Source: an uncultured Pelagibacteraceae bacterium
GTDB lineage: Bacteria; Pseudomonadota; Alphaproteobacteria; Pelagibacterales; Pelagibacteraceae
Direction of reading: 5' to 3'
Length of the DNA: 64,000 bases
NCBI GenBank assembly: GCA_902620585.1
Contig: CACNJC010000003.1
Span: forward strand, 1-64,000
Positions 10,923 through 38,060 of the stretch are shown piece after piece. The position numbers and the translations under genes were made by a program. How positions within the stretch are numbered: position 1 is the stretch's first letter; the number at the start of each line of letters is the position of its first letter. The notes beneath the pieces were generated by a model. That model made no database searches, was not told where the DNA came from, and saw only the letters and a program-made list of their open reading frames with translations.

Positions 10923-11597
10923 TCAAATTGAACCAAAATTTCTCTTAACTTTTTTATAGTTAATTACTATTTTTTTTAAATCTTTTTCGCTAAAATCAGG
11001 CCAAAGTTTATCTAGGAAATAAATTTCAGCATAAGCTAGTTGCCATAACATAAAATTACTCAACCTTTTGTGACCACCCGTTCTTATCAATATATCTGGA
11101 TCTGGCAAGTTTTTAGTATAAAGCTCTTTTCTTAAGGACTTAATATCAATTTTTTTTCTGTTTTTTAACTTCTTTAGGGCATTTATAATCTCAGATTTTG
11201 ATCCGTAATTGACAGCCAAATTAACAATAATCTTATCATTATTTCTTGTAAGCTTTATGACTTTTTTTAGTGATGATTTAACCTTTAGAGGTAATTTATT
11301 TAAGTTTCCTATGATATTAATCTTTATTCCGTTCGAAATAACATTATTCAATTCATTATTAAAATAATTTATTATAAGTTTAAAAAGAAAGTTAATTTCA
11401 CCTCTAGGCCTCTTCCAATTTTCTGTTGAAAATACGTAAAATGTTATGACTGGAATATTTAACTTAATTGAGCTTTCTACAATTTTTTTAACGGTCTTTA
11501 CTCCATTTATATGTCCAAAGTTTCTACCTTTGTTTCTTTTTTTTCCCCACCTACCATTACCATCCATAATAAAGGCAACGTGGTCGAGTTTATTCAT
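10923..11597 (-). CDS. uppS: Isoprenyl (undecaprenyl) diphosphate synthase
   Basis: HVAFIMDGNGRWGKKR, STENWKRP, PDILIRTGGHKRLSNFMLWQLAYAEIYF. Confidence 0.96.
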   Translation of the reverse strand: MNKLDHVAFIMDGNGRWGKKRNKGRNFGHINGVKTVKKIVESSIKLNIPVITFYVFSTENWKRPRGEINFLFKLIINYFNNELNNVISNGIKINIIGNLNKLPLKVKSSLKKVIKLTRNNDKIIVNLAVNYGSKSEIINALKKLKNRKKIDIKSLRKELYTKNLPDPDILIRTGGHKRLSNFMLWQLAYAEIYFLDKLWPDFSEKDLKKIVINYKKVKRNFGSI

Positions 11598-12154
11598 ATT
11601 TGTAGTATCTCTTTTTCTTTTTCAGCTAAGATTTTATCAATATTTTCAATATTAGAGTCTGTGAGTTTTTGAATATTTTTTTCAAATTTTTTACTTTCGT
11701 CTTCTGAAATCGTCTTGTTTTTTAGGTTTGCCTTTAAAACTTCATTAGCTTCTCTTCTTATGTTTCTAATGGATATTTTGCTTTTCTCTCCCATTCCCTT
11801 TAAAATTTTGATTAAATCTTTTCTTCTTTCCTCTGTTAAATCTGGAACTCTTAATCTAATAATTTGACCATCTATTTGTGGATTGATTCCAAGTTCTGAT
11901 TTTTGTATTGCCGAGTCAATTGCATTTACATTAGACTTATCCCACACTTGAATGGATATAAGTCTAGCCTCTGGAACACTTACTGTTCCAAGTTGATCGA
12001 TTGGCATCAGTTGTCCGTATACATCGACTTTAATTGTATCCAGCATATTAGGGTTAGCTCTTCCAGTTCTCAGTGTGGATAGGTCTTTTTTAAAAGATTT
12101 TATGCTTTTATCCATCTTGGATGAATAATTATTCTCATTAAAATTTGAACTCAT
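11594..12154 (-). CDS. frr: Ribosome recycling factor
   Basis: LSTLRTGRANPNMLD, DLTEERRKDL, RNIRREAN motifs. Confidence 0.97.
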   Translation of the reverse strand: MSSNFNENNYSSKMDKSIKSFKKDLSTLRTGRANPNMLDTIKVDVYGQLMPIDQLGTVSVPEARLISIQVWDKSNVNAIDSAIQKSELGINPQIDGQIIRLRVPDLTEERRKDLIKILKGMGEKSKISIRNIRREANEVLKANLKNKTISEDESKKFEKNIQKLTDSNIENIDKILAEKEKEILQI

Positions 12155-12156
12155 TC

Positions 12157-13023
12157 CTAAACTCCCTCACCAACTTTGTATCTTGTAAAATTAAGCACTT
12201 TTATATCTTTTTCTATTTTATTTTCTTTAAGTATATCAGATACTTTCTTTTTGGGGTCCATTATCCAAATTTGATTTAAAAGTGTATTATCGTTTATAAA
12301 TTTAGCAATTTTACCCTTAGATATTTTTTCGGCCATCTCAGGAGGCTTTCCTGAATTAGTGATCTCAGCTTTTATAATTTCTAACTCTTTATCTACTGTC
12401 TCTTTTTTTAAACCATCTTTTTCAATTGCTAAAGGATTTGAGGCTGCAATATGCATTGCTATTTTATTTCCGATATCTTCATTTTTACCTTTAACGATAC
12501 CATCTAATTTAACTATTGAAATTATTTTACCTATATTTTTTTCAATTGCCGAGTGAACATAAAAAAAATTAAAACCATTTTTATTATCAAAAAAATTTGA
12601 TCTTCTAATAGTGATTTTTTCTCCAATTTTTGCAATTAAATTCACAAGGTTGTCTTTAACAGATATGCCATTTTTCATCTTAGCTAAGTTTAATTTTTTT
12701 AAATCTCCTAAAAAAGAAAAGTTTATTTCTGATGTTTCTTTACAAAAAGAGATAAAATCTTTGTTTTTTGCAACAAAATCGGTTTCGCTATTAATTTCTA
12801 TTATTGATACTTTATTTTCTTTTTCCGAGACTAAAACTAAACCCTCAGATGCAGTCCTACTCATTTTTTTTGAAGCTTTTGCTATTCCTTTTTTTCGCAA
12901 AAATTCAATTGACTTTTCTATATCACCATTTGTTCCATCTAGTGCCAACTTACAGTCTTTAAATCCTACACCAGTAAGTTCTCTTAGTTTTTTAATATTG
13001 TTTAACAAGTCTTTATCTGACAT
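12157..13023 (-). CDS. tsf: Translation elongation factor Ts
   Basis: KKLRELTGVGFKDCKLAL, INSETDFVAKN motifs. Confidence 0.97.
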   Translation of the reverse strand: MSDKDLLNNIKKLRELTGVGFKDCKLALDGTNGDIEKSIEFLRKKGIAKASKKMSRTASEGLVLVSEKENKVSIIEINSETDFVAKNKDFISFCKETSEINFSFLGDLKKLNLAKMKNGISVKDNLVNLIAKIGEKITIRRSNFFDNKNGFNFFYVHSAIEKNIGKIISIVKLDGIVKGKNEDIGNKIAMHIAASNPLAIEKDGLKKETVDKELEIIKAEITNSGKPPEMAEKISKGKIAKFINDNTLLNQIWIMDPKKKVSDILKENKIEKDIKVLNFTRYKVGEGV

Positions 13024-13045: not shown

Positions 13046-13789
13046 TTATTTTTTTTCAGATTTTTTTTCTGATTTTTTTTCTTCTTTGAGATTTGGTTCT
13101 TTAATAAATTTTTCTGCGTCTTTAATCGTGTCCTTTAATAAATCACAATAAAGATTTATTGATCTTCTAGCATCATCGTTTCCTGGTATTGGAAAGCTTA
13201 TACCTGTCGGATCAGAGTTGGTATCGAGTACAGCTATAATTGGAATTTTAAGTTTTTTTGCTTCTGCTACTGCTAATGACTCTACATTAGTATCAATTAT
13301 AAATATTAAATCTGGAGTTTTTTTCATTTCTGAAATACCCCCCAAAGATCTTTGAAGCTTTTCTTTCTCTTTAGTAAATTTTAAGATTTCTTTTTTTGTA
13401 AAACCAATATTTTCTTTAGACAATTGCTCGTTTAATTTTTTTAATCTTTTTATTGAATTTTGAATTGTATTCCAATTTGTAAGCATACCACCTAACCATC
13501 TATAATTTACAAAGAACTGACCAGTTTCTTTAGCCAGGTCACTTACTTGTTCTGAGGCTTGTTTTTTTGTGGACACAATAAGAATCTTTCCTCCTCCAGA
13601 TATAGTTTTATGTACTTGCACCAATGCATTTTTTAAAAATTCTACTGTCTGAGTTAGATCGATTATATGTATAGAATTTTTTTCTCCAAAAATGTAATCT
13701 TTCATTTTTGGATTCCACCTTAAGGTTTTGTGACCGAGATGAACACCTGCTTCTAATAATTGTTTAATGTCTATTTTTGGTACGTTCAT
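13046..13789 (-). CDS. rpsB: 30S ribosomal protein S2
   Basis: [58 protein letters not shown]. Confidence 0.97.
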
Positions 13790-13797
13790 AATTTTTT

Positions 13798-13863
13798 CCG
13801 GTTAATCCACCACAGTAACTCCAAATATATGGACCGGGAGGGCTATGCCCTTAAAACTGTGTG
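13798..13863 (-). promoter_or_regulatory. Candidate structured 5' leader of rpsB (ribosomal-protein S2-type autoregulatory leader)
   Basis: On the minus strand CACAGT (13856-13861) pairs with ACTGTG (13811-13816), enclosing hairpins AGGGC-ATA-GCCCT (13839-13851) and TCCA-loop-TGGA (13820-13833); CCGGT (13833-13837) is complementary to ACCGG (13798-13802) next to the start codon. Confidence 0.6.
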
Positions 13864-13870
13864 CGAAATT

Positions 13871-13876
13871 ATTATC
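13871..13876 (-). promoter_or_regulatory. Candidate -10 element (GATAAT) for rpsB
   Basis: GATAAT on the minus strand, placing a transcript start about at the 5' arm of the leader stem; -35 is weak. Confidence 0.3.
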
Positions 13877-13909
13877 TGATATATACAACCGAGCTAAAAA
13901 ATCAACCTT

Positions 13910-16900
13910 CTAAACTGTTATTTTTTTAACGTATTCTTTGCTTTTTATAGCTTTTAAGTGGTTAAAATCGAATTTTCTCGCGTTCTGAAGATTATAATAA
14001 ATTTTTTCATTTTTTTTATGAATAACTAAGTTAATTATTGTTTGACCTTTATTATTTAAAAGTTTCTTGAGATCATTAATATCACAGTTCTCTTTAAGCT
14101 CGATTGTAACTTTTGAATAAGGTTTGTTAATTAGATCTGTTACACTTAAAATCTTTTTGACAGTCACTCTTCTGTTCGAGATATCGCTAATTGATTTATC
14201 TTTTTGTAAAGTTAAAATAAATGACTCTGCTTCCCTAATTTTATCTCTATTTTGAATGAGTATTTCTGCAAACAGAAAAAGTTCAAACTCTCCCTTGTTA
14301 TCACTAAATTTTACAATGGCAAATGGTGTTCCTTTTGCGCTTTTTTTTTCTTGTATGGACATTATGGTCCCAGCAATTAAAGCCTCATTTTCATTGTTTA
14401 ACATAAAGTCTTTATAGGACGTTATTTTTAGTTGCTTAAAAATTTCCTTATATTCGTTAAGCGGATGATCAGAGATATAAAAACCTAAAGACTTAAATTC
14501 TTCAGATAAAAGTTCTTTTTTTGTCCATTTTTTACATTCTACATAATCAAAACTATTTTCAATGTTAGAGTTATCATTAAAAAGACTGGTTTGGTTGTTC
14601 ATTTTATCATCGTTGATATTCTTAATTTGTTGAATTATTTTAGGAATTGAGTTTATAATTTTGTTTCTATCTTCATCAAACTCATCGAATGCTCCTGATT
14701 TAACCAAACCTTCTAACTGTAGTTTATTAACGTCTTTAGCATCCATTCTGTTTATAAAGTCAATTAAAGATTTAAATTTGCCTTTTTTTTCTCTTTCATT
14801 TATTATATTAGATATAGCCTCATACCCAACATTTTTGACTGCACCGAGACCATAAAAAATTTTATTTTTTTCAGTTTTGAAATCCGCGAAAGACTTGTTA
14901 ATAGAAGGTCTTATAATTTCAATATTTAATCTTTTTAATTCCTCTACAAATTCTCTTAGTTTTGAAGTGTTAGTTAATTCTGTTGACATTGTTGCAGCTA
15001 TAAAATCTTCCTTAAAGTAAGTTTTTAAATATGCTGTTTGGTAGGCAATTAATGCATAGGCTGCAGCATGACTTTTATTAAATCCGTATTGAGCAAAAGG
15101 TTCGATTTTTGTAAAAACAAAATTTGCAACTTCTTTTTTTATTCCATTTTTAATAGCCCCACTTATAAATCTTTCTTTTTGTTTATCTAGCTCTGCTTTT
15201 TTCTTCTTACCCATCGCTCTTCTTAAAATGTCTGCTTCGCTTGCAGTAAATCCTGCAAGTGTTTGAGCAATTTGCATAACTTGTTCTTGATAAATGATTA
15301 TTCCATACGTAGATTCTAATATTTTTTCTAGAGTAGGATGAATATAATCAGGTTTTTTATTTCCATTTTTACAATCATTATAAATAGGTATATTGCTCAT
15401 AGGCCCAGGCCTGTATAAAGCAACTAGTGCAATTATGTCATCAAATCTGTTAGGTTTCATCTGTTTGATCGCTTCTCTCATTCCAGTACTTTCAAGCTGA
15501 AATAATCCAATTGTTTCTCCAGTAGAAAGCAAATTGTAAACTTTTTCATCCTCAAGATTTATTTTACTTATATCTAAATCAATTTTTTTTAATTTTAATC
15601 TTTTAAGAGTTTTATTTATTACGGTTAAAGTTTTAAGCCCGAGTAAATCAAATTTAACTAGGCCAGCATTTTCTGATGAATACATGTCATATTGAGTTGA
15701 TGGTAAAATTAAATTGGAACTTTGATCAACATAAAGGGGAAATTGCTCAGCTAATTTATTGCCTGCTATTACTACACCTGCTGCGTGGGTAGCCATGTTA
15801 CGATTTAAACCCTCTAATTTTAAAGAAAGATTAATAAGTTTTTCAACTTTTCTGTTATTTTTGATTTCATCTTTGAATCGCGGCTCTCTATCGATAGACT
15901 CTTGAAGTGTTAAGGGTCTCGAAGGGTCGAAGGGTATCATCTTACATATTTTATCAACATGTCCATAAGACAGACCTAATATCCGTCCGACATCCCTTAA
16001 AGCCATTCTAGCTTTTAGTTTACCAAAAGTAATTATGTGTGCTACCCCATCTTTGTATTTTGTTTTAAGGTATTCAAAAACTTTATCTCTTTGTTCCTCA
16101 CAGAAATCTATATCAAAATCTGGCATAGAAATTCTATCTGGATTTAAAAATCTCTCAAAAATTAAATCAAATTCTATTGGATCAAGATCAGTGATATCTA
16201 AACAGTAAGCAACCAATGAGCCTGCTCCTGACCCTCTTCCAGGACCAACAGGAATAGAATTTTTTTTAGCCCATCTTATGTAATCTGATACGATTAAAAA
16301 ATAACTTGAATAATCCATTGAATTTATAATGTCTAATTCATGGAGTAATCGATCTTCATAAATTTTTTTAACCTCTTCAGATGATTTGTCTTTATTCTTT
16401 TTCAAAATAAAATTTTTAAGTCTTCCTTCCAAACCAAGTTTCGCTTGACTCATTAATTCTTTTTCAGGTGAAATATTTTGATTATTTGAAATTGACGGCA
16501 GAATAGGTTTTGATTTTTTAGGTTTAAAATTAAATTTAAAAGGAAAATTATAATTATTTTCTAAAGCTTCAGGAATATCTTTATATAATTTTTGAATATC
16601 TTCGTTTTTTTTTAAATAATGTTGATCGCTATAACGAAATCGATTTTTATCATCTATAAATTGTTTTTCGCCTATACACATTAATGCGTCATGGGCCTCT
16701 GCCATATCGTGATCTAAATAAAAAACCTCCTGACTAGCTATTATCGGTATATAATTCGTAGATGATAACTTTAGCATATAGTTTTCGTAATTCATTTCCT
16801 GTTCTTCTCCATGCCTTTGAATTTCAATATAAAGGCGATTATGAAAGGAGGTTTTTATATTTTTAATTATCTTTTCAATCAATTTTAATTTATTTGCATA

Positions 16901-20545: not shown

Positions 20546-20799
20546 TATTGTAAAAAATTCCTTAAATTTAAGAAACCATTGTTTACCAGATAATATATCA
20601 TAATAAATAGTATTGATGTAATTATAGTTGTTATCAAAAATTTTTTACCTATTTTCGGGTTTTTTGGAGCTCCTGGATCATTGCCCCCAAAACTGTCTTT
20701 AAATATTTCTTTGTTAGATTGAATTCCTACAGGCAAAATTGAAAAAAAGACTATCCACCAAATCATAACATAAACTATTATTGAACCAGTTATACCCAT
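20545..20799 (-). CDS. DUF1467 family two-TM membrane protein
   Basis: MGITGSIIVYVMIWWIVFFSILPVG...GNDPGAPKNPKIGKK; conserved position between proS and rnj in alphaproteobacteria. Confidence 0.75.
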   Translation of the reverse strand: MGITGSIIVYVMIWWIVFFSILPVGIQSNKEIFKDSFGGNDPGAPKNPKIGKKFLITTIITSILFIMIYYLVNNGFLNLRNFLQ

Positions 20800-37643: not shown

Positions 37644-37701
37644 TTTTTTTTATTAATATCTACTTTGATGCTTAAAGCTCAAAGATTCTTATATTAATTG
37701 G

Positions 37702-37707
37702 ATTATA
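37702..37707 (-). promoter_or_regulatory. Candidate -10 element (TATAAT within CTATATATAATCC) upstream of nuoA
   Basis: Consensus TATAAT on minus strand about 60 bp upstream of nuoA; no good -35. Confidence 0.3.
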
Positions 37708-37805
37708 TATAGCACTTAATATCGAAGTGTACAGCACAAGATGGTAGCAGTTTTTTACCAACAATAATGCTAAAAATTTTGAAGATGAAAATCATTATCA
37801 ATTAG

Positions 37806-37883
37806 TGGCGGGAGTGACGGGACTCGAACCCGCGACCTCCTGCGTGACAGGCAGGCGCTCTAACCAAGCTGAGCTACACCCCC
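37806..37883 (-). tRNA. tRNA-Asp (anticodon GTC), CCA encoded
   Basis: Minus-strand GGGGGTGTAGCTCAGCTTGGTTAGAGCGCCTGCCTGTCACGCAGGAGGTCGCGGGTTCGAGTCCCGTCACTCCCGCCA folds as cloverleaf; anticodon loop CTGTCAC. Confidence 0.95.
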
Positions 37884-37894
37884 ACAAAATTTAA

Positions 37895-37970
37895 TGGTGG
37901 GCGGTAAAGGACTCGAACCTATGACCCTCTCGGTGTAAACGAGATGCTCTACCAACTGAGCTAACCGCCC
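37895..37970 (-). tRNA. tRNA-Val (anticodon TAC), CCA encoded
   Basis: Minus-strand GGGCGGTTAGCTCAGTTGGTAGAGCATCTCGTTTACACCGAGAGGGTCATAGGTTCGAGTCCTTTACCGCCCACCA; anticodon loop TTTACAC. Confidence 0.96.
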
Positions 37971-38060
37971 CTCTATTAAATAAATCGACATATACAATAA
38001 ATAATTTATAAAGTAAAAAAGTATTTAAGTTTTAATAAATAGCAGTATTATTGAAATATT

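Follow-up and report, generated by a model that had tools for sequence, protein, structure and literature searches.

The window (i.e., the whole stretch of 64,000 nt that was analyzed, from an uncultured SAR11 bacterium of the order Pelagibacterales) carries the genes dnaE, rpsB, tsf, and frr in this order on the minus strand. The dnaE gene ends at position 13910 and rpsB starts at position 13789, leaving a gap of 120 nt between them (13790 to 13909). The two genes that follow this gap are listed below.

13046 to 13789, minus strand: rpsB, ribosomal protein S2, the proposed controlled gene (TIGR01011, 316.5 bits; ATG at 13789 to 13787)
12157 to 13023, minus strand: tsf, elongation factor Ts (TIGR00116, 249.6 bits; 22-nt gap to rpsB)

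The tsf gene is presumably co-transcribed with rpsB. A preliminary description had called the gap upstream of rpsB unusually long, and the window contains a single other same-strand gap of at least 100 nt (i.e., 253 nt). The G+C content is 37.5% in the dnaE-rpsB gap and 50% in the leader element described below, versus 29% in the window. Gaps between open reading frames of at least 100 amino acids are also long at 20546 to 20798 and at 37644 to 38060, the latter with two tRNA genes.

The leader element spans 13865 to 13798 on the minus strand and comprises three helices (P1, P2, and P3) and a pseudoknot (CCGGU/ACCGG). Its parts, with the fraction of cells paired in the SAR11 alignment where applicable, are as follows.

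13856 to 13865, minus strand: P1 5' strand, CGC-A-CACAGU, with A 13862 bulged; partner at 13808 to 13816 (99.4% of cells paired)
13839 to 13851, minus strand: P2 hairpin, AGGGC-AUA-GCCCU (91.1% of cells paired)
13833 to 13837, minus strand: J2-3, CCGGU, 5' strand of the pseudoknot
13821 to 13832, minus strand: P3 hairpin, CCA-N6-UGG (91.7% of cells paired)
13808 to 13816, minus strand: P1 3' strand, ACUGUG-GUG (SAR11 covariation and cross-class comparison)
13798 to 13802, minus strand: ACCGG, 3' strand of the pseudoknot, 8 nt upstream of the rpsB ATG

Most of this architecture had been proposed in the preliminary description. The outer stem CACAGT (13861 to 13856)/ACTGTG (13816 to 13811), the hairpin AGGGC-ATA-GCCCT (13851 to 13839), and the pseudoknot strands CCGGT (13837 to 13833) and ACCGG (13802 to 13798) near the rpsB start are all present on the minus strand. 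The letters of its second hairpin, TCCA-N6-TGGA (13833 to 13820), are present as well, but the actual stem is CCA/TGG, as the U is part of the pseudoknot. When folded alone, the sequence gave the nested part of the structure at -21.9 kcal/mol. This energy is not significant (z = -1.39; 15 of 200 shuffles were equally good) and was rejected as evidence of structure; since the single-sequence fold is unremarkable, the case for structure rests on comparison.

In 80 distinct SAR11 sequences, P1, P2, P3, and the pseudoknot together kept 96.4% of their pair cells, versus 29 to 47% for slid versions of the same structure, and the covariation score was 0.098, versus 0.055 (standard deviation, 0.004) for shuffles. 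Changes on both sides of a pair were found at two P1 pairs, three P2 pairs, and one P3 pair in these sequences (counts that ignore kinship), and the inner two P1 pairs vary as GC/AU and UA/CG/AU. Covariation in P1 and P2 thus agrees with the structured rpsB leader that had been proposed, the double changes at two P1 pairs answering the question raised about its outer stem. The pseudoknot CCGGU/ACCGG shows no variation in SAR11 (110 of 110 loci). Between classes, its two strands change together: one alphaproteobacterium carries UCGGU/ACCGA where SAR11 carries CCGGU/ACCGG, and gammaproteobacteria carry GGGGU/ACCCC, CGGGU/ACCCG, or UGGGU/ACCCG, class-level changes that represent few events seen in many sequences. 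Hence, the covariation anticipated for CCGGT/ACCGG exists between alpha- and gammaproteobacteria but not within SAR11. These class-level compensating changes are what the present comparison adds for the rpsB leader pseudoknot.

A sensitive Rfam scan matched RF01815 (rpsB) over its full length at 13865 to 13781 (30.6 bits; E = 1.6e-4). This match is single in the genome and lies directly 5' of rpsB; the other Rfam matches in the region were dismissed as eukaryotic chance matches. The Rfam scan suggested in the preliminary description therefore finds the family with sensitive settings only, as a scan of the leader at default settings missed RF01815, whose gathering score is 40 bits. The copy in the window is short compared with the family, with a P3 of three pairs. 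Among 150 SAR11-rich relatives, the model matches upstream of rpsB in most rpsB-holding SAR11 genomes of the host genus, and none of the 150 reaches the gathering score, whereas across 289 genomes of the class 187 have a match and 75 exceed that score. The low score is therefore a cutoff effect in the very lineage from which the motif was reported, and we take the published structure as defining.

That structure was reported by Meyer et al. in 2009 (PMC2704228), who found the rpsB motif in "Ca. P. ubique", in the gap between dnaE and rpsB, and described it as a P1 stem, short P2 and P3 stems, and a pseudoknot between J2-3 and a 3' extension of P1. The copy analyzed here likewise lies directly 5' of rpsB and has a bulged P1 capped by a P2/P3 junction, together with the J2-3/3' pseudoknot. 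The preliminary description had pointed to a Pelagibacter precedent for structured rpsB leaders, and this is that precedent, pseudoknot included. Since the same motif with its pseudoknot was published from the same gap, the element represents a known rpsB leader in SAR11, and its detection here is a rediscovery of something known since 2009. In the RF01815 consensus line, the published pseudoknot is shown without pairs, and Rfam classes this leader as an sRNA. The cutoff is set too high for copies as short as those of SAR11; at default settings, Rfam therefore passes over a published regulatory RNA in the highly abundant marine lineage of its discovery.

A block resembling a promoter is conserved directly upstream of the leader. 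Two segments, TTGATTTTTT (13905 to 13896) and TATATATC (13885 to 13878), are conserved in 70 close relatives and contain the following candidate elements, assigned by consensus and conservation.

13900 to 13905, minus strand: candidate -35 element, TTGATT (84 to 100% per column in 70 related sequences; overlaps an invariant T tract just past the dnaE stop codon)
13878 to 13883, minus strand: candidate -10 element, TATATC (79 to 96% per column in 70 sequences; 16 nt from the -35 element)

The exact arrangement TTGNNN-N16-TATATC occurs in 52 of 81 sequences. On this basis, transcription is predicted to start near 13871, approximately 6 nt before P1 and outside it. The candidate -10 element suggested previously, GATAAT (13876 to 13871), was discarded: its bases are mostly variable, the hexamer occurs in 4 of the 70 close relatives, TTGATT-N16-TATATC is conserved instead, and the start that GATAAT implies would lie within P1.

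The leader has a counterpart in Escherichia coli, where S2, helped by S1, represses translation of rpsB-tsf through the rpsB 5' untranslated region (review, PMC10931766). This repression is established for E. coli, in line with the earlier statement on S2 autoregulatory leaders in bacteria. The E. coli K-12 rpsB leader contains CACACACGUAUC...GAUACGUGGAGG. The E. coli element (t44 [tff], RF00127) shares a CACACAC strand, a bulged A, and the pseudoknot topology with the SAR11 leader, and GGAGG follows P1 in both, while its pseudoknot reads GGGGU/ACCCC instead of CCGGU/ACCGG. The leaders also differ in that the E. coli type has a separate Shine-Dalgarno (SD) sequence 3' of the pseudoknot, whereas the SAR11 leader does not. 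In SAR11, the distance from ACCGG to ATG is 5 to 10 nt (median, 8 nt; n = 82; 8 nt in the window), and an SD-like tetramer lies between the two in none of the 82 sequences. The corresponding distance has a median of 16 nt in alphaproteobacteria (SD-like tetramer in 45 of 51) and 19 nt in gammaproteobacteria (31 of 31); the start codon was taken as the first one with a long open frame, and single values may be off. The missing SD sequence is partly a general trait of the window, since SD-like tetramers are infrequent throughout it (12 of 59 genes, versus 6.4 by shuffling).

In our view, the element very probably represents the proteobacterial rpsB leader (RF01815) in its SAR11 version, corresponds to the E. 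coli rpsB 5' untranslated region, and acts as an S2 feedback switch on rpsB-tsf translation. The fold, the pseudoknot covariation across classes, the gene context, and the conserved promoter-like block are direct observations, and S2 and S1-domain genes are present; by homology with E. coli, S2 is most likely the ligand of the SAR11 leader and repression its effect. Transcription would begin a few nucleotides 5' of P1, and the leader would fold into P1 with its bulged A, the P2/P3 junction, and the pseudoknot between J2-3 and the stretch preceding the start codon. Excess free S2, joined by S1 as it is in E. coli, may then bind and stabilize this fold, such that the 30S subunit could not load and translation of rpsB, then tsf, would decrease. 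Given the short spacing, the pseudoknot itself may be able to block initiation in SAR11. In E. coli, the ribosome binding site is not part of the S2 operator (PMC10931766), so a steric block of this kind would be peculiar to SAR11 and is conjectural. The comparison points to a form in which operator and start site are fused, whereas in E. coli the operator is set apart from the ribosome binding site. Tentatively, leader and ribosome binding site may have become one in SAR11: the SD sequence is gone, the pseudoknot strand stands in its place, and the pseudoknot would gate initiation directly.

The absence of the SD sequence in all 82 SAR11 sequences and the position of P1 at the predicted 5' end would also suit a structured leader that acts without S2, either as a standby or stabilizing element aiding an SD-less start or as a protection of the mRNA 5' end. 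However, the fold and pseudoknot are common to the S2-responsive E. coli leader, and we regard an S2-independent role as unlikely. We give hardly any credence to the idea that the conservation mainly reflects a promoter or DNA-binding site, with the fold incidental: the promoter-like block directly upstream is conserved, but the element lies downstream of it, and compensating double changes occur in P1 and P2 as well as, across classes, in the pseudoknot.

A two-state switch, in which a long CCGGUCCA/UGGAUUAACCGG helix precludes P3 and the outer pairs of P1, with the choice between the states made by S2 or by the folding order, appears quite improbable. RNAalifold, which cannot draw pseudoknots, picks CCGGUCCA with UGG...AACCGG as the nested SAR11 consensus, and the three extra pairs are kept in 47 of 58 SAR11 sequences, versus 42.4 by shuffling (5 of 1,000 shuffles were as high), a figure inflated by relatedness. 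However, the five strong pairs of this helix are already accounted for by the pseudoknot, 10 of 80 SAR11 sequences do not form the third extra pair, and shuffling gave no excess of the extra pairs within alpha- or gammaproteobacteria. The excess seen when the groups were pooled across was not counted, because it stems from how the groups differ from one another. The competing CCGGTCCA/TGGATTAACCGG pairing suggested earlier thus has the RNAalifold preference and a weak excess in SAR11 in its favor but nothing within the other two groups, and the helix is regarded as putative.

The pyrH gene (UMP kinase) normally sits between tsf and frr; here, frr (11594 to 12154) follows tsf (12157 to 13023) without pyrH between them (12155 to 12156). 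TIGR02075 (pyrH) had no above-cutoff match in any listed genome of the host SAR11 genus, several of which are approximately 94% complete; the best scores there were approximately 40 to 53 bits, from partial matches in frames of approximately 400 residues. Above-cutoff matches to this model were present in 34 genomes from a different family of the same order, mostly near rpsB.
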